Of a stretch of DNA of 52,281 bases, positions 13,225 through 51,872 are shown piece after piece. This DNA is from Pyrinomonadaceae bacterium. Its GTDB lineage: Bacteria > Acidobacteriota > Blastocatellia > Pyrinomonadales > Pyrinomonadaceae. The stretch covers positions 1 to 52,281 of the forward strand of contig JAMQPI010000510.1 in the NCBI GenBank assembly GCA_023717565.1, in the 5' to 3' direction. The position numbers were made by a program, and so were the translations under genes. Numbering within the stretch: the first letter of the stretch is position 1; each line of letters opens with the position of its first letter. The notes under the pieces were generated by a model. The model did not search any database, was not told the DNA's origin, and saw nothing but the letters and a program-made list of their open reading frames with translations.

Positions 13225-13416
13225 AAGGAGGATTTGAGATCTTGAACCGGTTCCAAGCTTGGCAGCTGCGCCTGAAGGACCAAAGACTGGTCCGCGCGAC
13301 TCCGTGTGAGTCGATTCAATCGCTTGTTTTTCCTCAGCCGCAACCCGTTGCCGTCGACCGCGAAACGTTCGCTTTCGGAAACGATAAGCGAGGCTTTCCG
13401 TCAGTCGCTGTATCAT
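13225..13416 (-). pseudogene. Decayed fragment of the 3' end of the sigma-54 regulator gene
   Basis: [33 protein letters not shown] matches [33 protein letters not shown] of 14574..15875; nucleotide similarity continues into GTCGACCGCGAAACGTTCGCTTTCGGAAACGAT after an internal gap of about 55 nt. Confidence 0.8.
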
Positions 13417-14573: not shown

Positions 14574-15866
14574 TTAGGACGGATTGGAGAGTTTGAAACG
14601 ATTCTTGTTGATCTTGAGAGTTTTGATTTTCGACTCCAAGGTAGATCGTGCGATACCAAGCTTTGCAGCTGCGCCCGAAGGACCGAAAACTCGTCCGTGG
14701 GACTCCGTGAGAGCCGTCTCAATTGCTTGTTTCTCTTCAGCGGCAACCCGTTGCCGAAGCTCACGCTCGCTCGTTGGCGATGTGCGCAACGGTTGCCGCG
14801 AAAGCCAACTCTCATCGACCGAGAAACTTTCGCCTTCGGAAACGATGACAGAACGCTCAACAACGTTCTGCAGTTCGCGAATGTTACCGGGCCAGGCGTA
14901 TTGCTCAAACAAAGTGCGGGTTTCTTTGTTTATCTTCCTGATATTCTTTCCTTCTTTTCGGGCGTAGCGATCGATGAAGTATTGCACCAGCATCGGAACG
15001 TCTTCTCGACGCTCTCGCAACGGAGGCATCTCAATGGGAAACACATTCAGGCGGTAGAAAAGATCCTCCCGAAATGCGCCGGCAGCTATTGTCTCTGGCA
15101 AGTTACGGTTCGTCGCGCCTATCACTCTCACGTTTGCCTTGATCGACCTGTTCCCGCCGACACGCTCAAATTCGTGTTCCTGAAGCACACGTAGGAGGGC
15201 GACCTGAGTCTCTGGTGGAAGTTCGCCAACTTCATCAAGGAATATTGTGCCTCCTTCAGCCAATTCGAAACGGCCGAGCCGGCGTTGAGTCGCCCCGGTG
15301 AATGCACCCTTCTCGTGACCGAATAACTCCGACGGAATCAATGAGGGCGGAATGGCCGCACAATTCACGCTCACGAACGCGCGTTCGGAGCGCTTTGATG
15401 CCTTGTGAATGGCGCGCGCAATCAGCTCTTTGCCTGTGCCCGTCTCTCCGGTGATTAGTACGGTTGAGTCTGTCGGGGCCACTTTTGCCACTCGAACGAG
15501 GACCTGTTGCAAAGCAGGCGAGTTGCCGACGATCTCTTCAAACATCGAGGTCTTGATTATCTCTTCACGCAGCGCAATGTTCTCTTTTTGTAGTTCTTCT
15601 TCGGCACGTTTCCGATCCTCGATATCAGTCCCGGTGCCAATCCATCGTGTTATGTCTCCCCGTTCATCTCTGAGCGGAGCGAAGCGGACAAGAAAACAGC
15701 GAAACTGCCCGTCATGTCTCAGCAACCGAGCCCCGTGCTCAAACGGCTGACCCTCGAGAAATCCCTTCTTCCTTTCACTAACAAAATGTTCACGATCCTC
15801 CGGATGAACCAGATCAAGTCGAGACCCAGGCCATGAATGGGTGGCTTCGGGCTGACCCGCATCGGC
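14574..15866 (-). CDS. Sigma-54-dependent transcriptional regulator (partial PAS + AAA+ + Fis HTH)
   Basis: [43 protein letters not shown]-terminal [28 protein letters not shown]-type start lies a few codons after an in-frame TAA; PAS N-terminal half missing. Exact start is uncertain (ORF track gives 15875). Confidence 0.9.
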
Positions 15867-32427: not shown

Positions 32428-33560
32428 CTCAACGTGCCTGTTTTTCCAATCTGGCATCTAAAACAGTCTTACCTTGAGTCAATTCCCAAGTGGCCAACAC
32501 GTGGACAAGAATAACTGCACGCGACGGGTACTTGATGGTAAAGGAATGGGAAAGAACCCGAAAACCCTCAAAATTTCTTGGTGGCTGCAACTTTAGAAAA
32601 GGCAATTACTTACGTTTTTGCCGGTAGTTCGATTCGCAATGCGTAGACCAGCGCATCCTCTGCTTCTCTGATAGCACTATTGCTGGCGCAAGCAGGCAGG
32701 GATCGTATTAGGTATTGGTTAACTAGAGGTGGTGCAAGACATGTCAAATGTGAAACATCCGTCGGTGATTAGAGTGGGCTTTTCTTGGGCTGTTCTAATT
32801 AATGACAAGCCTGTTTTGGGAGCGGCGAAGAGGCATAGGCCGTATTACGTAGACCCACCTTTGACGAACCATCACATTCATTTAAAAGGACTTCGCCAAG
32901 TGGTGGCGCCAGCCGGCGGAATCGTTTAAGATGCCGAGACTTACGAGTAGATTGGTGAGCTGCGTGGCTCGCGCGAACTCGTAACTCGTTGATAAGAAAG
33001 GGCTTATGTGACGCCCGCTTGGCTCAGCAATTGAGCAATCACTCGCAAGTGAAGCCTTTACAACTAGTTACAGACAGCCCGGAAAATTAGGTTGTGCTCT
33101 TTTTGGGCTGAAATAAATCAGCGCAGCAGGATTTGAAAACGCCGATACTGTCTTGCCCACGGCAGAAGTGGGCAGGGTCTTCCAAATCTTTGCGGGCGCA
33201 GTAGTTGACATACAAGGCACGACCGCTTCAAAAGAATCCTGAAGCAGCCCACAATGGACACTCTTCGCGACTTGTTTTTTAGCCCACGCAGAAATGCTCC
33301 GTTTCTTTCAACCGCTCCAGGCGCTTATAGGTTATCGCGGTTCCTTTTCCTCTTTTGTTGACCGGTTTTCGTTTTTATGAAGGCGGAAGGATGAAGGCCG
33401 TTGAAAACGACTGGACCCGACCTGGACCTCGGCGTTAACTCTCCGATTTCAGCCCTGAGTAGTACGCTAGCCGGCTTCTTGTGAGCGATGATTCACGCAT
33501 GATCCTGAATTGGCACAAGCCTAAGGACAGGCAGAAAGCGGCTATTGATGCCGCACGTTC

Positions 33561-35186
33561 CTAAAGAGCGATCAAAAGAAAGACGAAGAACCCTAACATC
33601 CAGCCACCGGTTAGAAGTAACACCAGGATGACTTTCCAAAGGGGTTGGGTGTCCCCGCCAAAGGCAATGTGTTGCCGTATCTCGCGCCCACTTAACCGTC
33701 GCCAGAGCCAGTAGGTCGTGATGGGAGAGCCGAAGACAACCAAAGTCATAAAAGCCGTGCCCTGCAGCACAAAACCCAGGTCAACAAAGATCGCCATCAA
33801 TACATATCCCACGAAATAACTCACGACGATGACAATGGGTGGCGCGAGCAAGGCAATGGGTGCTACCCACCTGCGACGCATGGATCCACAAGTTTCTCAA
33901 CATCATTACTCCAGCCGGAAGCCCCCAATCAAATAAAATAAACGCAGACGCGCCGATTGCGCGGTCTCCGTATAACTTTCTTTCTGAGTTCACCAGATTC
34001 CGGCGTTCAAGAAAGTCCGTAGCGCCCGAGCGAACGCCCGGCTCCTCCGGGCCGCTTCCAGTCTGTGGCCCAGCAGCGGCATGAGTTTCCCCAACGAGAA
34101 TTTTGACATGTTCAACGATCTGCAAAGAAAAGATTGCCAGTCATCATCGAAGGCAAGAAAGCGACTCGAATCTATCGAGGGAGGCAATACGCTTGAAAAG
34201 ACATCCCGAGTTTGGTTGACGAATTTCTGATACACCTCGTTCAGCTTTGTCGCCTCTATATTCTGGGAAAAATACACCAGCACCTGGTTGGGCCTGAGGG
34301 TCTGGATGGTCTTCCTCATCTGCGAGAGGAAGCCCGCTGTTAGCCGATTATCGATTTGCAGGATCACGAGTGCCGATCGCCGCATGAGTTCGGTTGTTTC
34401 CGCCTGTAAGTCGTTGGTGATTGCGCGGCGGCGTCGAGAGATCCTGATTGCGATGGTTCCTCGCTGTATCCGAAGCTGGCAAACGGTCCCAGCACTTCAA
34501 AAATGGGGCTGAGGAGTTGCTCGTCATGCTGGCCTCAGAAAACATCTTATCCACGAGGCCCACGTCTCTTCTCGATTTTGCTTTTCGGTTTCGAACGATC
34601 GAAGATGAAGCACCGGCGCCCGATTGGGCTGAAGTGCGAGCGATTCTTCAGCCGTCAGTGAGCATTTCCTCTTTCCCGGAAGAATGAGGCCAATTCCCGC
34701 AAGGGCCAAGACCCAGCGACGTTGAATTAGCAGCAAGCCCGGCCCCCAATCCTCCGTCGAATAGAAAAGGAAAAAAAGTCCTACCAGCGCATAAAGACCG
34801 CCAACCTGTAACAGCGTGCCCTGCGCTATTTTGAAACGGGACGCCCAGGATCCCTTCAGAATCCCGTCAGTTGGCACCAGCAGGATCAGAATCAGGCCAA
34901 TTGGCACCCCATGTCGCAGCACCGACGCTGGGGCGCGAACAAAACTAAACAATCCAAAACCAAACAAGACCAATCCGGCAAGAAGTAAGCTGACGGAAAC
35001 GACGAACTTTGATCGCGGCGACTGAAATCGATGCTGAAATCTGTGAACATGAACCCGGAATCTGCGCCAACGAATCCACGAAGGACTTGCTGCTAACCCC
35101 GACTCCCCAGCGCCTCCGACAGCGCCAAACGCAAACGTGAGATAGATGCCTCCAACGGCGAATAGAAGGCCAAGGTATAAAAACAA
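33561..35186 (-). pseudogene. Multiply frameshifted gene for a TM protein with central LRSF-type cytoplasmic domain
   Basis: Consecutive pieces in changing frames: 35186..~34560 (TM segments + APVLHLRSFETE), DEQLLSPIFEVLGPFASFGYSEEP, RAITNDLQAETTELMRRSALVILQIDNRLT...FLAFDDDWQSF, FLERRNLVNSERKLYGDRAIGASAFILFDWG, and MRRRWVAPIALLAPP...FFVFLLIAL*. Confidence 0.75.
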
Positions 35187-35245
35187 ATGCAGGAGAAGAC
35201 GAAATGTTGCATCGATAAAGAACTTACAAAACGGCCTCTCCTCAG

Positions 35246-35266
35246 TTGCGGACTTATTGCGGACTT
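35246..35266. repeat. 10-bp direct repeat TTGCGGACTT x2, 1-nt spacer
   Basis: TTGCGGACTT-A-TTGCGGACTT directly upstream of the tRNA-3'-like fragment. Confidence 0.7.
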
Positions 35267-35273
35267 TTCCTAG

Positions 35274-35304
35274 GGAGGGGGTTCGAATCCCCGCTGCTCC
35301 ACCA
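35274..35304 (+). other. Isolated 3' end of a tRNA/tmRNA (T-arm, acceptor strand and CCA), candidate att site
   Basis: GGAGGGGGTTCGAATCCCCGCTGCTCCACCA: T-stem-loop plus acceptor 3' strand plus CCA; no matching 5' half (GGAGCAG...) or anticodon arm seen upstream. Confidence 0.65.
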
Positions 35305-35615
35305 ATAACACTCTACGGTTCAATAACTTACAGGCGCAACTCCTCAAGACCCAGTTCTCTCAAGTGGCCAATACCTGGCCAAAAAAAACAGCAACAGATG
35401 GTAGAAAACGGTAGAGAATGGGAACTCGTAGGAAAACTCTTAGATACTCGGCGACTCCAACTTACAGAAAACAAAGTTCTTAAGTTGTTATGGTGTAATG
35501 CGGAGGGCAGGCGTCCTTTACGCTTACCATCAAACATCTGAACTAGATTCACGATTTGCTCCGCTTGCACACGGATGTGTTGTGAACCCGTTCGCTGAAG
35601 ACGCACTCTGGATTT

Positions 35616-35644
35616 GTTTGAGATGCCAATTCGGCATCTCAAAC
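35616..35644. repeat. Perfect 12-bp inverted repeat, 5-nt loop
   Basis: GTTTGAGATGCC-AATTC-GGCATCTCAAAC. Confidence 0.9.
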
Positions 35645-36099
35645 CGAAGATTGATAACGTGAGTTAAGTGTGCCAACTGCCAACCGTTAGTCTTGGCCCA
35701 TGTGGCTTCAGCACTCGAACATTCGGTGGTCGCACGGTCCAGCTCACTAGATCAACGTTCGGAGTTTCAGCTTGAGGTGTAAGTCTTTGGGCCTCGGCGG
35801 ATTGTCAGGTTGTAACCTCTGACATTCTGGTAAATGGCCGGGGTTCCCGGCCGAGTTACACATTTGCTCCAGCGGTGGCAATGGCTTCGGCATCAGGAAA
35901 GGGTCGCATCCGATCGCGGAATAGCCGACGAGTCTGCAAGAGTGGTTGGCCGATCTTCAGTTCCTTCCGAAAACCGTGCTAGAAAACCAGCAAAGCAAGC
36001 GCAATGATATGACAATCGCATAATTCGACAATTCGATTCACGGGTACAATCGGGCTTCGTTCCTTTCACCTGTCTGTAACAATCGAGGCTTGAACATCG

Positions 36100-38613
36100 A
36101 TGCGGAGTCAGAACATGGCGCGGCTGCTAGTTGGCACACTACTGCTCCATTGTGTGGCGCTTAGCCAAACCCCGCGACCCGCGTCAGGTCAGCCAGCCGC
36201 GACATCAACGTTCACGCATTCTTTCGATAGTACCGTTCTGCCGTTCGTAACTAAGAACTGCTACGAATGTCACAACGCTACGCGGAAGGCCGGCGGCATG
36301 GATTTGAGGTTGCTTGGCACGGCGGATTCGATCGCGCCCCACCGCGCGACATGGGAGAACGTCGTGCGCAAGGTGAGCAACGGAGAGATGCCGCCGGAAT
36401 CGAGACCAGTGCCGAACGAAGGTGAATTGCAGGCAGCGATGGGCTGGCTCAAGAATGAGTTCGAGCGACTTAATAAGTTGGTGGTTCCCGCTGCGGGACG
36501 GGTCACGGCCAGGCGTTTGAACCGGGCTGAATACAACAACACGGTGCGCGACCTCTTGGGGGTTGATAGCAATCCGGCTGACGCCTTTCCGCAAGATGAC
36601 TCAGGGTATGGCTTCGACAATATCGGCGATGTGTTGTCGTTGTCGCCGGTGCTGCTGGAGAAGTATCTGAGTGCCGGTGAGAAGGTGGCCCGCGCTGCGA
36701 TATTCGGTCCCGAGAATCTGAAGCCGACCCTGGTTCGCTACCAACCTCCCTATCGCAAGAAATCAGATGGCGACGTCATTCGCTTTGATGGGCCGCAGAA
36801 TTACACGCTGTCGAATTATGACGTCACCGGGTTAGCGACGCCGATGTCGATTCACTTGACGCATCGCTTTCCCGTCGATGGCGAGTACCTTTTCAGAGTG
36901 ACGCCGGAAGGACGCCGCCCCGGCGGATCGGATCCAGTGAAGGTAGCTTTGTGGATCGACGGCAGAGTCGCGAAGGTCACCGAAATAGACGCGACAGATC
37001 TGGAAGGACAGACACGGGAGTTCCGTCTGAAAATGGCGGCCGGAGAGCGCTGGCTGGCCGTCTCCTTTCTCCGTCAGTTTGAAGGATTGCCGGCGAAGTA
37101 TGTCGCGTTGAATCCTTCAACGCGACCAATCCCGCCGCCTGAGCCACCGCCAAAGCCGCCCGCGAACGCAACTCCTCAGGAGAGAGAGGCGTTTCAAAAG
37201 AGAATAGAAGCGCGTAAGGGCCGGATCGAGCCGGCAGATGGTTTTCGTATTAACTTCCTGGAGATCGGCGGGCCATATGACTATGCCAAGGGTCCCGCAA
37301 ACGAGAGCTTGAAGAAGGTCTATTCGTGCGGGCACCTGGATGGCCAACACAAACCTGGATGCGCCCGAATGATTGTCGTCGATCTGGCCCGACGTGCTTA
37401 CCGGCGTCCAGTGACCCCGAGTGAAGTTTCCCAGCTCGTCAGGTTGATCACGCTGGCGCGGCAGCAAGGCGATTCCTTTGAAGAGGGGCTCAGCCTGGCG
37501 GTGCAGGCCATGCTGATCTCGCCGCACTTTCTCTTTCGTGTCGAAAGAGATCGCCCCTCGGTTCAAGCTGCGCACACCGCTGCCGCATATCCGATCAGCC
37601 AACATGAACTGGCTTCAAGGCTCTCTTATTTCTTGTGGTCGAGCATGCCTGATGAGCAATTGTTCCATTGCGCCGACCAGCAACTTTTGCGCAGACCAGC
37701 GGTGCTTGCCGGGCAAGTGCGGCGCATGTTGCAAGACCCGAAGTCGCGCGCCCTGGTCGAGAACTTCGGTGGACAATGGCTGGAATTGCGCCGGCTCGAA
37801 TCGGTTAGTCCTGATCGTGATCGCTTTCCCGACTTTGAGGATTATTTACGGCAGTCAATGCGGCATGAGACGGAGATGTTTTTCGCGAGCATTGTGCGGG
37901 AGGACCGCAGCATCATGGATTTTCTTGACGGGAATTATACGTACGTCAACGAAAGAATAGCGCAGCTCTATCATCTGCCTGGAGTGGTCGGGCCAGAGTT
38001 CCGGCGAGTTGATCTGACTGGCAACAAACAGCGAGGGGGAGTTCTAACGCATGCGAGTGTTCTGACTGTGTCGTCCTATGCGACGCGAACGTCGCCCGTC
38101 TTGCGTGGGCAATGGATACTGGAGAACTTTCTCAACGCGGCTTCACCACCACCGCCACCGAATGTCCCGAACCTTAATGAAGCGGCCATTGGCACGGCTG
38201 CATCTCTCCGGAAGCAGATGGAGCAACATCGTCAAAATGCGACTTGCGCTTCCTGCCATGCTCGCATGGACCCGCTCGGGTTCGGGCTGGAGAACTACGA
38301 TGCGATTGGGGCCTGGCGGACCGAGGACGGAAAATTTCCGATCGATCCTTCCGGAGTGCTCCCCGACGGTAGAACCTTCAAAGCACCGCACGAACTGAAA
38401 GCAATTCTGAGATATGATCGCAATGCTTTCGCTCAAGGCCTGACCGAGAAGTTACTCACCTACGCGCTCGGACGCGGCCTCGAAACATATGATAAGCCGG
38501 CGGTGACAAAGATTGCCGGCAGCCTGGCCCATGATGATTATCGCTTCTCCAGTCTGGTGATGAATGTTGTCAGTAGCGTGCCCTTTCAAATGCGTGGAGC
38601 AAAAGGTAAATGA
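36100..38613 (+). CDS. DUF1592 domain-containing protein (DUF1587/1592/1595/1588/1585, cytochrome c-like)
   Basis: Signal peptide; CYECHNATRKAGGMDLR, ARRLNRAEYNNTVRDLLGVDSNPADAFPQDDSGYGFDNIGD, RLSYFLWSSMPDEQLF, CASCHARMDPLGFGLENYDAIGAWR. Confidence 0.93.
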   Translation: MRSQNMARLLVGTLLLHCVALSQTPRPASGQPAATSTFTHSFDSTVLPFVTKNCYECHNATRKAGGMDLRLLGTADSIAPHRATWENVVRKVSNGEMPPESRPVPNEGELQAAMGWLKNEFERLNKLVVPAAGRVTARRLNRAEYNNTVRDLLGVDSNPADAFPQDDSGYGFDNIGDVLSLSPVLLEKYLSAGEKVARAAIFGPENLKPTLVRYQPPYRKKSDGDVIRFDGPQNYTLSNYDVTGLATPMSIHLTHRFPVDGEYLFRVTPEGRRPGGSDPVKVALWIDGRVAKVTEIDATDLEGQTREFRLKMAAGERWLAVSFLRQFEGLPAKYVALNPSTRPIPPPEPPPKPPANATPQEREAFQKRIEARKGRIEPADGFRINFLEIGGPYDYAKGPANESLKKVYSCGHLDGQHKPGCARMIVVDLARRAYRRPVTPSEVSQLVRLITLARQQGDSFEEGLSLAVQAMLISPHFLFRVERDRPSVQAAHTAAAYPISQHELASRLSYFLWSSMPDEQLFHCADQQLLRRPAVLAGQVRRMLQDPKSRALVENFGGQWLELRRLESVSPDRDRFPDFEDYLRQSMRHETEMFFASIVREDRSIMDFLDGNYTYVNERIAQLYHLPGVVGPEFRRVDLTGNKQRGGVLTHASVLTVSSYATRTSPVLRGQWILENFLNAASPPPPPNVPNLNEAAIGTAASLRKQMEQHRQNATCASCHARMDPLGFGLENYDAIGAWRTEDGKFPIDPSGVLPDGRTFKAPHELKAILRYDRNAFAQGLTEKLLTYALGRGLETYDKPAVTKIAGSLAHDDYRFSSLVMNVVSSVPFQMRGAKGK

Positions 38614-39971
38614 AACGACTCCCAAGACGGACATTTCTTGGAGGGATAGGAACTCTCATTGCATTGCCAGTTCTGGACGCGATGCTGCCGGCGTTTGCGT
38701 CGGCGAAAGAAACCGCAGCTCTAGCAAAAGCGCCGACGCGAATTTCCTTCAACTACATTCCGAACGGCGCGATCATGGAGCATTGGACTCCCAAAGGTGT
38801 GGGACAGAATTTCGAGTTCACCCGCATCCTCAAGCCGTTGGAAAACTTTCGTGAAGACCTGCTGGTGCTCTCGAAGCTGGCCCACCATCAAGCCAACGAG
38901 TTGGGCGATGGCGGTGGTGATCACGCTCGCGCGGGCGCATGTTTCTTGACCGGCATTCATCCGCGCAAGACGGCTGGTGCTGACATCTCCGCTGGCATTT
39001 CCGCAGATCAAATCGCAGCGCAACAGCTGGCCGCCAACTCGCTGACTCAGACCAGGCTGCCGTCGCTCGAGTTGGGCTGCGAAGATTCCCGCACCGTCGG
39101 CAATTGTGATTCAGGCTACAGCTGCTCCTACACGAACAGCATTTCATGGCGCGGGCCCGCCACGCCCATGCCGCCTGAGACGAATCCGCGCGGCGTCTTC
39201 GAGCGACTGTTTGGCAGCGGCGATGTCAGTCTGGATTCAGCCACGCGCGCGCGTCGCACTCTCTATCGCAAGAGCATTCTCGACCTGGTGCGTGGTGACA
39301 CCCAGCAACTCGTCAAGACTCTTGGCCCCAATGATCGCCGCAAGATTGATGAGTACCTCTCAGCGGTCCGTGAGATTGAGCAGCGAATCGACAGTGCGGA
39401 AAACAGCAACCACGAGTTACAGCCAACGATGGAGAAGCCCGACGGTATTCCGATCGCTTTCTCGGAATACCTGAAGCTCATGTACGACCTGCAGGTCATG
39501 GCCTTTCGATCTGATCTGACGCGTGTGACAACGTTGATGGTCGGTCGCGAAGGCAGTGTTCGGGTCTATCCTGAAATCGGCATTGCCGATCCGCACCATC
39601 CGCTAACGCATCATCGTAACAACCCCGCGATGATTGAAAAGATTGCGCAGATCAACTGCTTTCATGCGCAGCTCTTTGCATATTTTCTAGATCAGCTTAA
39701 GTCCATTCCGGATGGCGACGGGTCCCTGCTCGATCACTCGATGATTGTCTATGCGAGTGCGATCAGCGATGGCAATCAACACCTTCATGAAAACCTGCCG
39801 GTGTTGCTGGCCGGTCGCGCGAACGGTGAGCTAAAACCCGGTCGGCACATCGTCTATCCGGACAAGACACCGATGGCCAACCTGTACCTGTCGTTGTTGG
39901 ATCGGCTCGGTGTGCACACCACGGCCATCGGCGACAGCACCGGCCGACTTGAGCACCTCAACGAGGCATAG
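38610..39971 (+). CDS. DUF1552 domain-containing protein
   Basis: Tat-like N-terminus PRRTFLGGIGTLIALPVLDAMLPAFA; SLELGCEDSRTVGNCDSGYSCSYTNSISWRGPATPMPPETNPRGVFERLFG; ATGA overlap with DUF1592 gene. Confidence 0.93.
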   Translation: MKRLPRRTFLGGIGTLIALPVLDAMLPAFASAKETAALAKAPTRISFNYIPNGAIMEHWTPKGVGQNFEFTRILKPLENFREDLLVLSKLAHHQANELGDGGGDHARAGACFLTGIHPRKTAGADISAGISADQIAAQQLAANSLTQTRLPSLELGCEDSRTVGNCDSGYSCSYTNSISWRGPATPMPPETNPRGVFERLFGSGDVSLDSATRARRTLYRKSILDLVRGDTQQLVKTLGPNDRRKIDEYLSAVREIEQRIDSAENSNHELQPTMEKPDGIPIAFSEYLKLMYDLQVMAFRSDLTRVTTLMVGREGSVRVYPEIGIADPHHPLTHHRNNPAMIEKIAQINCFHAQLFAYFLDQLKSIPDGDGSLLDHSMIVYASAISDGNQHLHENLPVLLAGRANGELKPGRHIVYPDKTPMANLYLSLLDRLGVHTTAIGDSTGRLEHLNEA

Positions 39972-39974
39972 AGA

Positions 39975-41669
39975 ATGACTGCTCCAAAACGGCTCGTGTT
40001 CTTCGTCATCGCTCTTTGTCTGTTGGCTGGCTCCCTAGTTGTTTCGCGGGTCGGAGCTGAGGGTCAAAAAAAAAGAGCAGTAACGGCAAAGCGTAGGGTT
40101 CTCGAATACGACGTGCGTGAGTTCGGGGCTAAGGGCGATGGCCAGACGCTCGACACCGACGCCATCAACAAGACTATTGAAGCTGCCGCAAGCGCGGGCG
40201 GGGGCACGGTGCGCTTTCCCGCCGGCGCCTATCTGAGTTTTTCCATCCACCTGAAAAGCAACCTCACGCTGTATCTCGATCAAGGGGCTACCATCGTCGC
40301 CGCCGATCCGCAGGAGGCCAAAGGGAACTACGACATGTACGAGCCGAATGAATGGGACCAGTACCAGGACTTTGGCCATAGCCATTGGCAGAACAGTTTG
40401 ATTTGGGGAATCGGACTGGAGAACGTTGCCATCCTCGGACCGGGCCTGGTTAACGGCAAGGGTTTGACGCGCGGCGGTCCCAGACTGCGTCGGCCGGTTC
40501 AGCCTGGAGACCGGCCCGCCAGTTTGGGCGATCGCCCAGCCAGCACTTCGGCGCCGTCTCCCTCCCCGCCGCCGGGAAGCACTCAGGCAGCGCCGGATAG
40601 TTTCGGCAACAAGACGATCTCGCTCAAACTCTGCCACAACGTGCTGCTGCGCGACTTCTCGATCTTGAATGCCGGGCACTTTGGTCTACTGGCTACGGGG
40701 GTGGACAATCTCACGATTGACAACGTCAAGGTCGACACTAATCGAGATGGCTTTGACATCGATTCTTGTCGCAACGTGCGTATCTCGAATTGCAGTGTTA
40801 ACTCGCCCAATGACGATGCGATTGTGCTCAAGAGTTCCTACGCCCTCGGTTACGCCCGCGCAACTGAGAACGTGACCATTACCAATTGCCTCGTCAGTGG
40901 CTACGATATCGGCTCGTTGTTGGATGGTACGTTCAAGCGCAACGTGAAGCAGGCGCCGGACCGCGATGGACCAACCGGGCGCGTCAAGTTCGGCACCGAA
41001 TCAAATGGCGGCTTTAAGAACATCACCATCTCAAACATTGTTTTTGATCACTGTCGCGGGCTGGCGCTGGAGACGGTTGACGGCGGGCTGCTCGAAGATA
41101 TAAGCATCAGCAACATCACCATGCGCGACATTGTAAACTCCCCGATCTTTCTGCGTTTGGGAAGCCGCATGCGAGCGCCCGCGGGCACGGCGATCGGCCA
41201 ACTGCGGCGCGTCCAGATTAGCAACGTGGTGGTCTATAACGCCGACCCTCGCTATGCTTCAATCATCAGCGGCATCCCGGGCCACGACATCGAAGACGTG
41301 AAGCTCAGCAACATCCGCATCTTCTATCAAGGCGGCGGCACGCTGGCACAGGCGGCGCTGTCTCCGGCCGAGAAGGAAGCGGGCTATCCTGAACCTTCAA
41401 TGTTCGGCGACACTCCCGCGTACGGCTTTTTCATACGTCACGTAAAGGGCATCGAGTTAGACAATGTCGAGGTCAGCTACGCGCAGGAAGATCTGCGCCC
41501 TGCCTTCGTCCTCAACGACGTAAACGGTGCGGACTTTTTTCACGTTAAAGCCCAGCTGGCGAAAGATACGCACGCCTTCGTGTTGCAGAATGTTTCTGAT
41601 TTCAGCACTTACCAATGCAAAGGCGTGCCGGACATGCGGCTTGAGCGCGTGGAACAGAAGAAGTTTTAG
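39975..41669 (+). CDS. Glycoside hydrolase family 28 (polygalacturonase-like)
   Basis: YDVREFGAKGDGQTLDTDAINKTIEAA, NRDGFDIDSCRNVRISNCSVNSPNDDAIVLKSS, ENVTITNCLVSG; parallel beta-helix repeats. Confidence 0.92.
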   Translation: MTAPKRLVFFVIALCLLAGSLVVSRVGAEGQKKRAVTAKRRVLEYDVREFGAKGDGQTLDTDAINKTIEAAASAGGGTVRFPAGAYLSFSIHLKSNLTLYLDQGATIVAADPQEAKGNYDMYEPNEWDQYQDFGHSHWQNSLIWGIGLENVAILGPGLVNGKGLTRGGPRLRRPVQPGDRPASLGDRPASTSAPSPSPPPGSTQAAPDSFGNKTISLKLCHNVLLRDFSILNAGHFGLLATGVDNLTIDNVKVDTNRDGFDIDSCRNVRISNCSVNSPNDDAIVLKSSYALGYARATENVTITNCLVSGYDIGSLLDGTFKRNVKQAPDRDGPTGRVKFGTESNGGFKNITISNIVFDHCRGLALETVDGGLLEDISISNITMRDIVNSPIFLRLGSRMRAPAGTAIGQLRRVQISNVVVYNADPRYASIISGIPGHDIEDVKLSNIRIFYQGGGTLAQAALSPAEKEAGYPEPSMFGDTPAYGFFIRHVKGIELDNVEVSYAQEDLRPAFVLNDVNGADFFHVKAQLAKDTHAFVLQNVSDFSTYQCKGVPDMRLERVEQKKF

Positions 41670-41701
41670 CAAGTTGCCGAAAAACCAATTCGGAGACCAA
41701 T

Positions 41702-44686
41702 ATGAATTCAGTGCTGCGATTGCTCGTCCGCTTGATTGTCGCGCTGGCATTTTCGACTCTGGCCGTGTCGTATAGTCCACCAAAGAGTGCGCGGGCAAAG
41801 TACAACTTCAATTCCGGCTGGAAGGTGCTGGTCGGCGACCCGACAGCCGCGCAAGCAGTGGACTTCGACGACGCCGGCTGGAAGGATGTGACTACGCCCT
41901 ACGCCTGGAACGAAGACGACGCGTTCAAAAAGAGCATCCACGACTTGCCTACTGGCATCGCCTGGTATCGCAAGCACTTCAAACTCCCGCCTCAAAGCAA
42001 CGGCCAGAAGATCTTCCTGGAGTTTGAAGGCATCCGGCATGGTGGCGAGTTCTACCTCAACGGCAAGTTCGTCGGGCGGCATGAGAACGGGGTGATGGCG
42101 TTTGGTTTTGACATCAGCGACCAGGTGAAACCCGCGCGCGAGGAGAACGTCCTCGCCGTGCGCATTGATAACGCATGGGATTACCGCGAGAAGGCTACCA
42201 ATTCGACCTACCAGTGGAGCGACAGAAATTTCTACACCAACTACGGCGGCATCAACAAGAACGTCTACCTTCACGTTACTGATAAGCTCCATCAGACGCT
42301 GCCCCTCTACTTGAACCTCGGCACGACGGGCGTTTACGTTTATGCGCAGGACTTTGATATCAAGGGCAAGAGCGCGAAGCTCACCGCCGAGTCCCAGGTA
42401 AAGAATGAATCCGGCGCGGCTCGCACCTTCAGTTACGAAGTCGGCATTGAAGACCCGAACGGCAAGATCGTGAAGACGATTAGCGGCGGGCGATACACGC
42501 TGGCTCCGGGTGAAACCAAGACAGTCAGCGCCAGCGCTCGCGTCACCGGTCTGAATTTCTGGAGTTGGGGTTACGGCTACCTCTACAACGTCTATACCTC
42601 GCTGATGGTTGGTGACCTATCGGTCGACACCGTCAGAACGCGCACCGGTTTTCGCAAGACTGAGTTCGGCCAGGGACTGGTAAAGCTGAATGACCAGGTT
42701 ATTCAACTCAAGGGCTACGGCCAGCGGACCACCAACGAATGGCCTGCGGTGGGGCTGTCAGTGCCGGCGTGGCTGAGCGATTTTAGTAATCGTCTGATGG
42801 TTGAGAGCAATGCCAATCTCGTTCGCTGGATGCATGTGACGCCCTGGAAACAAGACGTCGAGTCGTGCGATCGGGTGGGCTTGATTCAGGCAATGCCCGC
42901 CGGTGATTCGGAAAGAGACGCAACCGGCAGGCAGTGGGAGCAGCGAGTCGAAGTGATGCGCGATGCGATCATCTACAATCGCAACAACCCGAGCATTCTC
43001 TTTTACGAATCCGGCAATAAGGGTGTGAGCGAAGATCACATGCGCCAAATGAAGGCCGTGCGCGACCAGTACGATCCGTTTGGCGGACGTGCCGCCGGCG
43101 CGCGCGAGATGCTCAATAGCAAGGTCGCCGAGTACGGCGGCGAGATGCTCTACGTCAACAAGAGCGCCACCACACCGTTCTGGGCGATGGAGTATTCCCG
43201 CGACGAGGGCTTGCGTAAGTATTGGGATGAGTACTCGCCCCCCTTTCACAAGGATGGTGATGGCCCGCTTTACCGAAATCAGGATGCCCGTGTCTACAAT
43301 CGCAACCAGGATTCCCACGCCATCGAGAACGTGGCCCGCTGGTATGACTACTGGCGGGAGCGGCCGGGCACAGGCGCGCGAGTCAGTTCGGGTGGCGTGA
43401 ACATAATTTTCTCGGACACGAACACCCACTTCCGCGGTGCGGAGAACTATCGTCGCAGCGGTGAGGTCGATGCGGTCCGCATCCCCAAGGACGGATTCTT
43501 CGCCCATCAAGTGATGTGGGACGGCTGGGTGGATGTCGAACATCAGCGCATGCACATCATTGGCCATTGGAATTACCAGCCAGGAACCAGGAAGAACATC
43601 TACGTCGTGTCGAGCGCCGAGAAGGTTGAGTTGTTCGTCAATGGCGTGTCGAAGGGGTTTGGCGAACCGAGCAATCGGTTTCTTTTCACCTTTAAGGACA
43701 TCAAGTGGCAGGCCGGTACAATCCGCGCGGTGGGTTACGACGCGAGGGATCGGAAGGTCAATGAAGCCGTCAAGAAGACTGCCGGAAAGCCGTTCGGCAT
43801 TCGCCTAACGACCCATGTCAGCCCCAAAGGCTTGCGCTCTGATGGCGCTGATTTGGCCTTAGTCGATGTCGAAGTAATTGACGCTGAGGGAAACCGCTGC
43901 CCGACGGCTTTGAACCTAATCAAATTCAGCCTTTCCGGTCCATCTGAGTGGCGAGGTGGCATCGCCCAGGGGCCGGACAATTACATCCTTTCCAAAGAAC
44001 TGCCGGTCGAAGGCGGTGTGAATCGGGTCATTGTTCGCTCTGCGCGGCAGGCCGGCAAGATCATCCTCAACGCGGCCGCGGAAGGCCTCAAGCCGGCGAC
44101 CGCTAAGATCGTCTCTCAGCCCGTAGTTGCGGCTGACGGCTTGTCGCTTGAGATGCCCGATGCCGGGCTTTCGTCCAACCTGGGCCGGGGGCCGACGCCT
44201 CCAGCGGCGCCTCTCGTTTTGACACGCAGGCCGGTGGCTATCGTGCGCGCCGCAGCCGGATCCAATGCGGATCAGGTGACGAAGACCCTCGACGATGATG
44301 AGACCACCGACTGGTCCAGCGACGGTATGCTCCAGACGGCGTGGATCAAGTACGAATTCGAGCGGGCAGTTGACATCGATGAGGTGGTCATCAAGTTCGT
44401 CTCGTGGAGAACGAAGGCATACCCCATCCGTATCACGGTGGATGACCAGGTGGTCTTCGCTGGTCCAACATCGCCGAGCCTCGGCTATGACACGATCAAA
44501 TTCCATTCGGTGAGCGGTAAGAGTTTGAAGATAGAACTCACCGGCTACGTCCGCAACAGAGATGCTTTCGGGAATATTGTGGAGCTGGCCGCGACGCCAA
44601 ACCCACAGTCCATTGCGAGCGCCAAAACCGGACAAGCGACACTAGGAATTGTGGAAGTGGAGATCTATCAGCCACCCATCAGATGA
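41702..44686 (+). CDS. Glycoside hydrolase family 2 with C-terminal discoidin-like domain
   Basis: [75 protein letters not shown]-terminal [12 protein letters not shown]...[19 protein letters not shown]. Confidence 0.92.
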
Positions 44687-44757
44687 CCTTTAGGAAAAGA
44701 CAACCCGCTCGTCGGCAAGCAGATTTGACACCGGAATCCGATTCTTCAAAGGAAAGC

Positions 44758-47556
44758 ATGAGAACCGTTTTTGGAAAGCGATTCACAGTCTGTGCGTTCG
44801 TGCTTGTTTTTGTTCTAAGCGGCTTCTGCTCTTCAGGGACCGCGCAGACAAGAACCATCAATGAGCTTCAACGTTCGTTTGAGCATCCACCCGATGACGC
44901 CCGGATCATGGTGCGTTGGTGGTGGTTTGGTCCGGCAGTGACCAAGCCGCAGCTCGAACGTGAGATGCGTTTGATGAAGGAAGGCGGCATCGGCGGCTTT
45001 GAGGTACAGCCTGTTTATCCGGTCGTTCTTGATGACGTGAACGCGGGCGTCAAGACCTTGCCATTTCTCTCCGATGAGTTTATCGACGCGCTACGCTTCA
45101 CATCTGAGAAGGCGCGCGAGTTAGGTTTGCGCTTCGACCTCACGCTTGGCAGCGGCTGGCCTTTCGGTGGTCCATCGGTTCCGCTCAGCGAGGCTGCCGG
45201 TCGTTTGCGTTACGAGCATGTGAAGGTCAGCGCCGGTTCGACTCGGGTCAAAGTTCCGGACATCGGCGTGGCAGAAAAGCTACTGGCGGTCTATCTCGCA
45301 GAAACGAAAGGCGAGGCCATCGCGCCCGAGAGCCTGCGCGAGATCACCGACATCAAGGACGGCGCGGTATGGCTTCCCGCCGGATTGGCAAGCGCGCATG
45401 AATTGCTATTCTTTATTTCCGGCCGCACCGGAATGCAAGTTAAGCGTCCGGCAGTCGGCGCCGAAGGGTTCGTGCTTGATCATCTTGACCGCAAAGCCAC
45501 CGAGAATTATTTGAAGAATGTCGGCGACCGTCTAATGCAAGCGTTTGCGGCCAAAGGGGCAAACCGTCCGTACTCGATCTTCTGCGACAGCCTCGAAGTC
45601 TATGGCCAGGATTGGACGGCTGACCTGCTTGATGAGTTTCAAAAACGTCGTGGCTATGATCTCAAGCCCCATCTACCGGCGCTGGTGATGGACGTCGGCT
45701 CTGACACTTTGAATATCCGGCACGACTGGGGATTGACGCTGACTGAGTTGCTGAACGAACGATTCCTGACGCCGATACACGACTGGTCGAAGAAGAATCA
45801 AACGCTGTTTCGCATGCAGAATTACGGCGTTCCCGCGGCGACTATTTCTAGCAACGCCTACGACGATCTGAGTGAAGGCGAAGGCTCGCAGTGGAAAGTT
45901 TTGCGCGCCGCGCGTTGGGCTTCTTCCGCGAACCATTTGTACGGGCGGCCAGTGACATCTTCCGAGACGTGGACGTGGCTTCACTCTCCTGCATTCAGGG
46001 CGACGCCGTTAGATATGAAAGCAGAAGCGGACCGGCACTTCCTCCAGGGGATCAACCAATTCATCGCGCACGGTTGGCCGTACACTGCGCCAGGCGTTGA
46101 ATATCCGGGTTGGCGTTTCTATGCCTCGGCAGTCTTTAACGAGAAGAATCCATGGTGGCCGGTCATGCCGGATGTGACTTCGTACCTGCAACGGCTCAGT
46201 TACTTATTACGGCAGGGACAACCGGCCAACGATGTGGCGTTGTATCTCCCGAACGATGATGGCTGGGCGCATTTCACCAGTGGGAACACCCAGATGATCG
46301 AACTGCTGCGCGAGCGGGTCGGACCGAATGTGATACCGAAAATTCTTGAGTCGGGATACAACCTCGACTTCTTTGACGACGGTTCGCTCAAGCAAGTCGG
46401 TCGCGTCGACAAAGGTTCGCTGGTCATGGGTGGAAACAAATACAAGATCGTGATTCTTCCCGGGGTCGAGCGCATCCCGGTTGTAACGTATCGCAAGCTT
46501 GAAGAGTTCGTGCGCGGCGGCGGCATTCTGATCGCTACGCGCCGCATCCCGGAACTTCCACCGGGCCTGAAGGCGACGGACGCCGAAACCGCGGAAGTGC
46601 TCGGAATCTCGCGCCGACTTTTTAGTGAATCGACTTCGCCTGCGTACTTAGTGACGGATGAAGCAGCTCAACTCGCTGGCAAGCTAAACAGCATATTGGT
46701 TCCGGATGTCGCGCTCTCGCCAGCGGTAGCTGACATTGGCTTTGTTCATCGCAGTACGGTGGATGCGGAGATCTACTTTTTGGCTAACACTTCTAACGCG
46801 CGCCAGAATGTGAAAGGTACATTTCGCCAACAAGGGCTGAAGCCTGAATGGTGGGACCCTTTCTCCGGCAGCGTCACACTCGCGAGTGTTGTCGCGACAG
46901 TTGCGGCAGGGACGACAAAAGTCTCGATTGATTTTGAGCCGTACGGATCGCGCGTGCTGATCTTCACGAAACGCACGGTGTCGAGCACCCCAATGAATAA
47001 CCCCGCCGCAGCGCAGGAGCCAATTGATTTGAGCACTGGCTGGCGTGTGTCTTTCGGCGCGAATGGGCCTGTGGTGCAAATGGATAAGCTTCGCTCGTGG
47101 ACTGATGACGCACAGACGCGCTACTTCTCAGGCGTTGCTACTTACGAAAGGCAAGTCATAGTTCCTGACAACCTGTTGCAAAACGGTTTGCGTGTTGCGT
47201 TGGATTTCGGCGAGGGTCGAGCTGATGAATCTCGACCCAGCCGCTCCGGGATGCAGGCGATGTTTGAAGGGCCGATCCGCGAAGCAGCACTGATCTATGT
47301 CAACGACCAACGCGCGGGCTCGGTTTGGTGTCCGCCGTATGCGCTGGACATCACTCGGTTGCTGCGACGCGGCGTGAACAAGATTCGCGTCGAGGTCAGC
47401 AACACGGCGATCAATTACATGGCCGGGCATAGCCTGCCGGATTATCGCTTGCTGAATTTACGTTACGGCGAGCGGTTCCAAGCGCAGGAGATGGAAAAGG
47501 TGCAACCCGTCGCTTCGGGCCTGTTCGGGCCGATCCGCCTGGTCTCAACTCGGTAG
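44758..47556 (+). CDS. Glycosyl hydrolase, GH106 alpha-L-rhamnosidase-like
   Basis: [92 protein letters not shown]-terminal carbohydrate-binding beta-sandwich. Start chosen at MRTVFGKRF. Confidence 0.9.
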
Positions 47557-47557
47557 C

Positions 47558-49020
47558 TTACTGCTTCGCAACTGAGGGTGTGTCGACGTTCGTGTTGTTT
47601 GAGGTTCGAACCGCCAGCCCGTCGCGGGTTTGCAGTTTGACGTTGGTCATACTCCAGTCTGGGGCGAATTCGATCACGCCGGCCGCCTCTCCCTGCGCGT
47701 TCACGTTGATCCATTTCACATTTCTGATCACCTTGTCCGGCAGGCCGGTGGCGGAGAATATCTGCCGCGCGCCAGTGACCTCGACATCTTCGATTGTGAT
47801 ATTGCGAAACTCGCAAAGTCCTCGCTCCGGAGGCAACACCGGCGTCGCCAACACCACCCAGTGCCTGGGAATGTTTTGGATGCCAGGGGGAATCGTCGCG
47901 TAGCTGAAGCTCGGGTTCCAATCCAGGGTGAACGTGAACGGCAGTCGCACCTTGTCCAGCTTCAGACCGCGAATCAGCACGTCGGACACAAAGCCGCCGC
48001 GCGTCTTGGCAGACTTGAAACGGATCCCTTCGTTAGTGCCAATCCCGCGGTTGTCGTAGGCAACCACCATCCGGATGCCTCCGGAAGTTTCGCTCCCGAA
48101 TGAGAGCACGCCACCGCCTGACCTGATGGTGTTTTGTCGAATCACGATGTATTCCGTTGGACGATTCACGCGGAGCCCGTCGGAATCGCGTCCGGCTTTG
48201 AGGCAAATATCATCGTCGTTGTTGTCGATGTCGCAGTTCTGCACCAACACGTGATCGGAAGAGTCGATATCAACTCCGTCGGTGCTCGGGCCTTTGTTGT
48301 CGCTGATCTGGCGGCGTCCACGGTCACATGATCAGAATAGACAACCTGCACGGTCCAGAAGCCGGACCGCTTCAGACTCAGGTTTTCCACGGTGACATCG
48401 GCAGCTTTCCAAATGACCATCAGGCGTACGCGCTCAGCGTCATAGTCCGAGGCCCACCGCAACCCGCGTGGTTCGTAGTCCTCGCGCCGCAGTTTCCAAT
48501 ATTTCGCCCACCACTTCTCCCCATGGCCGTCGATGGTCCCGCCGCCGGAAATTTTGACGTTCCTTTGCCCGTTCACATTGATCAGCGCGGCGGGCCAGTT
48601 CATCTCGATGCCTGAAATTCTGGTCGCGATGGAAGGGTAGTCGGAATCTTCCTGACTACCGAGGAGCGTGACGCCCTGATCGATGCGCAGGTGAACGTTG
48701 CTCTTTAGAAAAATGGCCCCCGTGAGATAGGTTCCGGGTTTGAAGCTAATGAGACCGCCGCCCGCTTTCGCACAGGCGTCAATCGCTTTCTGGATCGGCT
48801 GAGTGGAGTTCGTGACGCCGTCCGGCACAGCTCCATATGCATTCGCGGGAAACGTCCTGCGCCCGCCGGGTGAACGCCGCGCACCCACCTGGTCCACCCA
48901 GGCGGGCAGCGCATCCGAACGCAAAGGAAATGTTGCCTGACCAAGTGCTGGTCCAACGAAATAACAACTTGCCAGGAATAAGAAACAAGGTAACTTCCAT
49001 CTGCGGGCTGCCGTTCCCAT
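47558..49020 (-). pseudogene. Second GH28 polygalacturonase-like gene, split by a single frameshift
   Basis: N-part 49020..48166 (NAYGAVPDGVTNSTQPIQKAIDACAKAGGGLISFKPGTYLTGAIFLKSNVHLRIDQGVTL) continues in another frame (ISDNKGPSTDGVDIDSSDHVLVQNCDIDNNDDDICLKAGRDSDG) to 47558; break near 48308-48318. Confidence 0.85.
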
Positions 49021-49077: not shown

Positions 49078-50160
49078 TCATGGTCTGGGTGGCGCCGTCG
49101 AGCCCCGCTTGACTAGATAGGTCGGAATGCGAACTTCCTTGCCCTGTGCGCCTGGCTGCGCAATATTCTTCATCAATGCTTCTACGGTTCTGCGGCCGAG
49201 CTCAGCACGCGACAGGCAGACAGTAGTCAGCGCTGGCTCGCTCAATTCAGCGAATGCTGTGTCGTCGAAGCCGATGAGTGAAATATCGCGCGGAATTGAC
49301 AGACCGGCCTTGCGCATTTCTTTCATCAGCCCGAACGCCATCATGTCATTGGCTGCCAGGACGGCCGTTGGCAACTCTGCAGCTGCCAGGATTTCGATGG
49401 CCGCCCGCTGGCCACTTTCAAATCTGAAGTCGCCTTCGTAGACGGCCGTCCTGGCGTTCGGCACGTGCCGGGCGACCGATTCGAGAAAAGCATCACGCCG
49501 CACATTGGTCCCATCGGGCTTGTCAGAAGCGGCGACGTGAACAATATGTCGATGGCCAAGCGAGGCCAGATGCGCCACAGCTTCATCGACTCCAACGGCG
49601 TAGTCGATGACAACGTTACTCATGTGCTCGCTCACCTTGTCCAGGTTTTGACTGACCACAGAGATGTTTCTTCCAATCAGTTCGTGAATCAGACCCGGAT
49701 CGAGTTTAGCGGTCATCAGGGCCACGCCCGCTACCTTCAGCCCGATCAGACGCCGCACGTGATCGGCGGCCCGATGAGGGTCATAGTTTGTGTTGAGCAA
49801 GACGGTATTATAGCCGCGCTCAAACGCGTTCATTTCAAAGCTCTTGACGAGCTCGGGAAAGAGCGGGCTAGCAAAGTCCGAGGACAAAAGGCCGATGATC
49901 CTGGTGCGTCCTGATGCTAATGAGCGAGCCTGAGCATTCGGGTAATAGTTGCAGCGCTCGATTGCGTCCAAGACGCTCGCACGTGTTGTTGCGGCCACTC
50001 TCTTCGTTTCATTGATGACATTCGAGACTGTGGCAGTCGATACGCCTGCCGCGCGCGCCACGTCATCGATTCGCGTCGCTTTAGCCCTGTCGGTTTTCTC
50101 GCGCGTCACTGCCACTAGGTCACCGCCGCGCGGTGCTTCTTCAAGGTCGATACTAATCAT
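49078..50160 (-). CDS. LacI family transcriptional regulator
   Basis: TRIDDVARAAGVSTATVSNVINETKRVAATTRASVLDAIERCNYYPNAQARSLASGRTRIIGLLSSD; periplasmic-binding-like sensor domain. Confidence 0.95.
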   Translation of the reverse strand: MISIDLEEAPRGGDLVAVTREKTDRAKATRIDDVARAAGVSTATVSNVINETKRVAATTRASVLDAIERCNYYPNAQARSLASGRTRIIGLLSSDFASPLFPELVKSFEMNAFERGYNTVLLNTNYDPHRAADHVRRLIGLKVAGVALMTAKLDPGLIHELIGRNISVVSQNLDKVSEHMSNVVIDYAVGVDEAVAHLASLGHRHIVHVAASDKPDGTNVRRDAFLESVARHVPNARTAVYEGDFRFESGQRAAIEILAAAELPTAVLAANDMMAFGLMKEMRKAGLSIPRDISLIGFDDTAFAELSEPALTTVCLSRAELGRRTVEALMKNIAQPGAQGKEVRIPTYLVKRGSTAPPRP

Positions 50161-50363: not shown

Positions 50364-50895
50364 CTAGAGTGGGCTGACCAGATGTTGCGGAAGCGAACCG
50401 GGTTGTTGTGATCCTGTAAAACCAGCGGCACCAGCCGGATTTTTGTCGACTCCCAACAAATCGCGCACGGTGTTGTTGTACTCGGTCCGATTCAAGCGCC
50501 TGGCCGTGACCCGTCCCTCAGCAGAAACAACCAGGCCATTAAGGCGCGCAAACTCGCCTTTGAGCCAGCCAATCGCTGCCTGCAATTCGGCTTCGTCGAG
50601 CTGCGGCGCTGATTCCGGCGGCATCTCGCCGCAGCTCACTTTCCGCACCACGTTCTCCCTGGTCGCCCGGTTTTGCATAACCGAAACCGGCGTGTTGAGC
50701 AACATGAGATCCATGCCTCCGGCCTTTCGGGTCGCGTTATGACATTGGTGGCAGCTCTTGGTTACAAAGCGCAAAACTGGATTGTTGAAGGAGGGTGTTG
50801 CTGTTTGCATGCGAAGCGGAGTCCTGGCTAACAGCCACACAATGAAGCACCAGAGTAACGATCAGCACGCGTCCTATGATCTCAAATCGCATCAT
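50364..50895 (-). pseudogene. Frameshifted and truncated paralogue of the DUF1592 gene (N-terminal part only)
   Basis: MRFEIIGRVLIVTLVLHCVAVSQ in one frame, then RFVTKSCHQCHNATRKAGGMDLMLL...VTARRLNRTEYNNTVRDLLGVDKNPAGA in another; homology to 36100..38613 stops and a stop codon follows about 18 codons later. Confidence 0.88.
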
Positions 50896-50993
50896 TATTA
50901 AAGTCGCACTTCCACTCACGGGGCGGGGCGGAGAGATTGTGCTCGCGAATTGATTTTCCGATTTAGACGATTTCAATAGTGTTCAGTGTGCGA

Positions 50994-51872
50994 TCATCGT
51001 TTACGCAAGAACTGCAGGTCGGCCAACCACTCTTGCAGCCTTGAGGGCCACTCAGCAATCGGGTGTGGTCCCTTTCTGATGCCAAAGCCATGCCCACCGT
51101 TAGAGTAGATATGCAGCTCGGCGGGAACACCGGCCTTTTTCAAGGCGATGAATAACGTGGCCAAGTGTTCCGACATCGTGGGCCGGTCATCATAAGCACA
51201 GACAAGAAAGGTGGGTGGCGTGTCCTTCGCTACGTTTATGCCTTTCCCTTCTCCCGGATAGATCAAGATCTGAAAATCGGGACGCGACTTCTGGCGCTCA
51301 ACCGGGTCAGCGGCAGTTTCGTTTCCGGCATCGTAGTTGGTCGAGGCCAATGAAGCTACTTCACCGCCCGCTGAGAATCCCATGATGCCGACCCGCGCGG
51401 GATCAATACCCCATTCCGGCGCGCGGCAGCGCACCAGCCGGAGCGCGCGCTGCGCATCTTGCAGAGCGTGTACCTCGACTTTGTAGGTCGAGCCTTCGGA
51501 TCGGGCCAGCCGATACTTGAGCACAAAGCTCGCCACTCCGCGATCGCTGAACCACTTGGCGACGTCGTAGCCTTCGTGATCAATCGAGAGGAAGCGATGC
51601 GCCCCACCGGGCAAAATGATTACGGCGGCGCCGGTGGCTTTTTTCTTCTCAGGGAGATAAACAGTGATGCTCGGGTTATGAATGTTTGAGACCACCGGGA
51701 ACGAGAGACCTGGCTCGGTCCTTACCGTGATTACCTCTTTCGAGGTCTGGCCCTCGGAACCGGGCGCGCCGTTGGGCCACAGCGGAACCACCAGAGGTTG
51801 ATCCGCGGCCGCCACGATAGTGATTGACATCACGCATAGGAGGAGAAACGTTTTCCAAAGCATAAGTGACAT
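50994..51872 (-). CDS. Alpha/beta hydrolase (secreted esterase, BD-FAE/xylan esterase-like)
   Basis: AVIILPGGAHRFLSIDHEGYDVAKWFSDRGVASFVLKYRLA, VGIMGFSAGGEVASLAS (GFSAGG), PTFLVCAYDDRP, HIYSNGGHGFG. Confidence 0.92.
   Translation of the reverse strand: MSLMLWKTFLLLCVMSITIVAAADQPLVVPLWPNGAPGSEGQTSKEVITVRTEPGLSFPVVSNIHNPSITVYLPEKKKATGAAVIILPGGAHRFLSIDHEGYDVAKWFSDRGVASFVLKYRLARSEGSTYKVEVHALQDAQRALRLVRCRAPEWGIDPARVGIMGFSAGGEVASLASTNYDAGNETAADPVERQKSRPDFQILIYPGEGKGINVAKDTPPTFLVCAYDDRPTMSEHLATLFIALKKAGVPAELHIYSNGGHGFGIRKGPHPIAEWPSRLQEWLADLQFLRKR

Follow-up and report, generated by a model that had tools for sequence, protein, structure and literature searches.

We analysed a stretch of 52,281 nucleotides (the window) from an uncultured soil bacterium of the Pyrinomonadaceae, Acidobacteriota (contig JAMQPI010000510.1 of assembly GCA_023717565.1). 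Positions 36100-47556 of the window carry five same-strand open reading frames, each of which was found exactly where an earlier note, made from the letters of this DNA alone, had placed it. Pfam agreed with the families that the note had named:

36100-38613, plus strand: DUF1587-DUF1595-DUF1592-DUF1588-DUF1585 protein of 837 residues (Pfam), with a Sec-type signal and an AlphaFold model
38610-39971, plus strand: DUF1552 (HXXSHH) protein of 453 residues (Pfam, 346 bits), with a twin-arginine signal, RRTFL
39975-41669, plus strand: GH28 rhamnogalacturonidase of the BT4146 type, 564 residues (Pfam, NCBIfam)
41702-44686, plus strand: beta-galactosidase-like GH2 protein of 994 residues, with DUF4982 and a C-terminal F5/8-type domain (Pfam, NCBIfam)
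44683-47556, plus strand, alternative start at 44758: GH106 alpha-L-rhamnosidase, BT4145-like (Pfam, NCBIfam)

The tight junctions that the note described are present in the DNA. The first two genes overlap by 4 nt (ATGA at 38610-38613), only 3 nt separate the DUF1552 stop codon from the GH28 ATG, with a GAGG within the last DUF1552 codons, and GH28 and GH2 lie 32 nt apart. The longest GH106 frame overlaps GH2 by 4 nt; starting instead at the internal ATG at 44758, which precedes a better signal peptide, it leaves a gap of 71 nt. By ordinary criteria the five genes form an operon, and their arrangement makes it probable that the pair and the hydrolases are co-transcribed. The note had called the pair "fused" into the operon, which is right for the adjacency of the genes and wrong for the proteins, as none are fused.

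Scanning for sigma-70 promoters and terminators gave results no better than the shuffled expectation, and a palindrome and shared-word scan for a LacI operator common to the stretches that precede the operon and lacI (see below) returned nothing convincing. As the note had observed, no SusC/SusD or transporter gene lies next to the cluster in the window; the nearest TonB-plug/outer-membrane-barrel protein is encoded at 15925-18462. The roughly 3.7 kb (32430-36090) that separate the operon from a DsbA-like thioredoxin gene hold no recognisable gene. Elsewhere in the window, a direct repeat of 101 bp (85% identity; 13253-13353 and 14656-14756) is placed around a SpoIIE-type phosphatase gene.

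The glycoside hydrolases

Against NF049898, the NCBIfam profile for the BT4146 rhamnogalacturonidase, the GH28 protein scored 759.1 bits over profile positions 1-445 of 445, and the curated cut-off, like that for BT4145 a whole-protein score, is 500 bits. The GH106 protein belongs to its family by PF17132 (259.6 bits, cut-off 29) and aligned end to end with NF049897 (BT4145), scoring 450.1 bits against an equivalog cut-off of 1300. Because it falls below that cut-off, we call it a GH106 whose specificity is not certainly that of BT4145. The GH2 protein has the GH2 domains, scored 286.5 bits against NF041462 (beta-galactosidase GalA, cut-off 900) and has 6hpd as its nearest solved structure. 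The HMM searches that the note had proposed as a check recovered all of the families with Pfam and the GH28 equivalog with NCBIfam, but left GH106 and GH2 below their equivalog cut-offs. An odd-looking acid/base region in GH2 (YESGNK) was dropped as a lead, since 6hpd is similar there (WEGGNW).

The last steps of RG-I degradation in Bacteroides thetaiotaomicron fall to BT4145 and to GH28 enzymes, BT4146 among them, which act by turns (PMC8002723). Judged by their sequences, the operon's three hydrolases are most plausibly an exo-acting set for RG-I: the exported GH28 would take off galacturonic acid and GH106 rhamnose, alternately, at the ends of RG-I oligosaccharides, and GH2 would take off galactosyl side units. 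The GH28 score and the closeness of GH106 to BT4145 uphold the note's description of a pectin/rhamnogalacturonan locus. What lies here is a real operon that joins an ordinary RG-I enzyme set to an uncharacterised but known pair.

The DUF1592/DUF1552 pair

Proteins with DUF1592 and DUF1552 are common in Planctomycetota, Verrucomicrobiota and Acidobacteriota. We know of no function for them, and a literature search of limited reach found no tested function for either family. The 837-residue protein begins with a cytochrome c domain, followed by DUF1587, DUF1595, DUF1592, DUF1588 and DUF1585 (Pfam). The note had pointed to two CxxCH motifs in a secreted protein, and they are there: CYECH at residue 54, in the N-terminal part, and CASCH at residue 716, in DUF1588. 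Both motifs, together with Met97 and His710, are invariant in an alignment of 55 sequences, and by analogy with class I cytochromes c, Met97 is a likely axial ligand of the first haem.

AlphaFold models of the DUF1592-type and DUF1552 proteins each have a mean pLDDT of 84. In the former, residues 205-395 or so, between DUF1587 and DUF1595, form a jelly roll without annotation, which occurs throughout the aligned family and, with the linker after it, is the family's most variable part. A fold search returned CBM6/35/36-like matches with a probability of about 1 and target TM of 0.42-0.53, none of them at E<=0.001, and the model suggests that the domain is CBM-like. Searches of the PDB for sequence relatives of DUF1592 and DUF1552 found none but weak cytochrome c matches to the haem domain.

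The DUF1552 protein does have the Tat-like signal that the note had reported. Its model finds its best fold matches in the alkaline phosphatase/sulfatase superfamily (2w8s, 3lxq and 4miv; E 4e-4 to 1e-3), but with TM of only 0.35-0.40, where a global fold match would call for more than 0.5, with 10-12% sequence identity and with no nucleophile identified. The model thus hints weakly at an alkaline-phosphatase-superfamily-like fold. Given this sulfatase-like match, it is worth recording that an FGE-sulfatase (formylglycine-enzyme-like) gene lies just upstream of a DUF1592-DUF1552 pair in another genome (L095 4302-5246, G022:C122).

The arrangement that defines the pair, a DUF1587/1595/1592/1588/1585 protein followed by an HXXSHH protein, is found in the window and is conserved, frequently with a 4-nt overlap; a DUF1592 partner adjoins 75 of 80 named DUF1552 loci. 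The gene 3' of DUF1552 varies. Nucleoside-hydrolase-like proteins (near 24 loci; 15/65 downstream genes match PF01156) and ankyrin proteins (near 22 loci; 14/65 downstream genes) are commonest, many of them starting within about 25 nt, and the other families are mostly single cases. In many Bryobacterales (L019, L021, L022, L033, L058, L062 and others) a nucleoside-hydrolase-like gene follows DUF1552 after a few nucleotides, and ankyrin-repeat proteins occupy this slot in other lineages. A second pair in the genome studied here (L003 7314-15625, G000:C174) lies 0.6 kb upstream of genes for a Rieske protein, cytochrome b and cytochrome c. GH30 and a putative esterase stand beside the pair of G088 (L094 6014-8701), from the same genus as the window's genome, and an esterase-gluconolactonase beside that of G127. 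The predicted haem sites, the jelly roll, the variable third gene and the respiratory neighbours fit a periplasmic electron-transfer module.

Linkage to pectin hydrolases in other genomes

Is the pair a regular companion of pectin hydrolases? The earlier note had proposed that it takes part in oxidative or surface attack on pectin-derived glycans and had made enrichment of the pair beside pectin hydrolases its own test. No homologue of GH28, GH2 or GH106 was present within 10 kb on either side at any of the 80 named DUF1552 loci. Among 55 other DUF1552-bearing Acidobacteriota genomes, any GH28 occurred in 8 and any GH106 in 9; coordinates compared by eye placed none of these genes <100 kb from a listed DUF1552 gene, the nearest being about 105 kb away (G382). 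Twelve genomes drawn from other loci, most of them in Planctomycetota or Verrucomicrobiota, gave about 70 DUF1552 matches; three had GH28, in no case on a DUF1552 contig. Of 119 genomes from the order, 24 carry a strong GH28 orthologue, 5 carry DUF1552 and 2 carry both (Fisher p=0.26), and 22 of the 24 RG-positive relatives were without DUF1552. These four sets partly overlap, and the relatives' assemblies are fragmented enough for linkage to be missed. Since the 55 genomes hold few GH28 genes and, by our estimate, only about 0.3 chance linkages would be expected there, a modest enrichment stays compatible with the counts; a general partnership is ruled out. Enrichment of the pair beside pectin hydrolases was rejected, the outcome that the note had named as refuting its hypothesis.

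The neighbourhoods of the hydrolases agree. In relatives L139, L140, L141, L147 and L149 the GH28 gene adjoins a second GH28 gene, and in relative L146 GH106 adjoins GH2; none of these stretches has a DUF1592 or DUF1552 match. The window's own genome holds another BT4146-type GH28 gene (C231; 81% identical), which is preceded by noncoding DNA of its own; its contig is short and carries no pair. We conclude that the link between the pair and pectin is not general. The proposed attack on pectin glycans thus found no support, and a role in this one strain is still compatible with the data. The locus ties DUF1592/DUF1552 to a defined substrate in one strain only, and the survey speaks against labelling them pectin oxidases on the basis of their neighbouring genes. 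The two predicted haem sites, the CBM-like jelly roll, the variable third gene and the respiratory-chain neighbours of the second copy are better starting points.

Origin of the juxtaposition and comparison with known systems

Downstream of the operon, on the opposite strand, lies a convergent block that is absent from the earlier note. Parts of it recur in front of the operon and at its start:

47558-49020, minus strand: second GH28, spread over two frames that overlap, 48166-49020 and 47558-48250
49078-50160, minus strand: LacI-family regulator, upstream of the second GH28
50364-50840, minus strand: truncated DUF1592-type gene, with the cytochrome domain and the start of DUF1587 only
50994-51872, minus strand: BD-FAE-type esterase, intact
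35832-35972, plus strand: 3'-terminal esterase remnant, ahead of the intact DUF1592 gene
35832-36585 (left arm) and 50427-51140 (right arm): inverted duplication, 70% nucleotide identity over 753 bp

The second GH28 is split by one frameshift near 48310, and its counterpart in relative L139 is a single 486-aa frame; either decay or an assembly error would account for the split. The truncated DUF1592-type gene has 72% amino acid identity to residues 32-162 of the intact protein. The esterase remnant, interrupted by an in-frame stop, matches residues 245-291 of the intact esterase at 77% amino acid identity. In the left arm, the last esterase codons and a stop precede the intact DUF1592 gene; in the right arm, the esterase gene is intact and the DUF1592 gene after it breaks off at residue 162. 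Because the arms are broken on different sides, the RG genes lie between two halves of an esterase-DUF1592 cassette. The simplest reading is that a local rearrangement placed the pair upstream of the RG genes, its order and timing being inferred. G022, too, has an esterase fragment upstream of a pair, but there other genes stand between them. Recent horizontal import of the whole operon is not favoured, as the closest relatives that we found of both the pair and the hydrolases are in the same family or class.

On this account, the pair is generic and translationally coupled, a putative two-haem c-type cytochrome of the periplasm with a sugar-binding-type jelly roll plus a Tat-exported DUF1552 protein, and local rearrangement would have set it immediately in front of RG-I exo-glycosidase genes native to the family. 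It would serve as a redox module in the periplasm with a substrate of its own, not necessarily pectin, and may now be transcribed with the RG genes. The gene order, the spacing, the families, the inverted duplication around the RG genes and the lack of such linkage elsewhere are observed. The operon itself is real and lineage-specific, and we think it probable that this account is right as a whole. Two observations count against it: the 3-nt gap together with the fact that the intact pair survived when its duplicate decayed, and the fact that the pairs of near relatives (G088, G127) also adjoin sugar-related genes. The placement and the survival could reflect selection for co-expression.

Perhaps the pair acts directly in RG-I use in this strain, its jelly roll binding pectic oligosaccharides while the pair oxidises released sugars or oligosaccharide ends? 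The operon structure would suit such a role, as would the CBM6/35/36-like jelly roll (for all that its matches miss E<=0.001) and the carbohydrate role suggested earlier for PSCyt proteins (PMC5615132). However, jelly rolls are a common fold, the pair has no GH28/GH106 association elsewhere and nearly all RG-positive relatives do without DUF1552, as counted above, and we regard a direct role as unlikely.

The closely spaced nucleoside-hydrolase-like and ankyrin genes would instead argue for a generic redox module with a variable downstream slot, filled by one of these, by an esterase/lactonase or, here, by GH28. Yet shared ancestry within lineages may account for the two large classes, no chemistry unites the third-gene families and some of the tallied downstream frames are doubtful, which leaves this explanation quite unlikely. 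We give little credence to a broader version, in which the pair would be a general periplasmic oxidation module that oxidises the products released by hydrolases in a translationally coupled downstream slot, the RG-I enzymes being one cargo. An assembly artefact at the DUF1552-GH28 junction would be in keeping with a metagenome-assembled genome of 735 contigs (89% complete, 3.3% contamination) and with a junction seen in no second genome. The join, however, sits exactly at the boundary: DUF1552 runs complete to its stop, the GH28 signal peptide is complete, and the two are 3 nt apart with a ribosome-binding site; G+C is even across it, and the closest relatives of both sides come from the same family. 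An artefact is thus highly improbable, and a rearranged generic pair in front of native RG-I genes is the reading that we retain.

The locus can be compared with the RGI-PUL BT4145-BT4183 of Bacteroides thetaiotaomicron, with which it shares a GH28 that is a BT4146 equivalog and a GH106 that aligns with BT4145. In contrast to that system, the acidobacterial locus is without adjacent SusC/D or lyases, its GH106 reaches only 450 bits where the cut-off is 1300, and its first genes are an uncharacterised cytochrome pair. Where an adjacent SusC/SusD defines a Bacteroidetes-type polysaccharide utilisation locus, the cluster does not qualify as one. The pair itself resembles the planctomycete-type PSCyt/PSD cytochromes that He et al. 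(2017; PMC5615132) described with conserved neighbour genes in freshwater Verrucomicrobia, and for which they proposed a carbohydrate role from CBM domains and gene neighbourhoods, without tests. The domain families are the same, as is the two-gene arrangement with an uncharacterised partner. There, however, sulfatases and glycoside hydrolases lie nearby in freshwater Verrucomicrobia, whereas here the acidobacterial copy heads an RG-I set.
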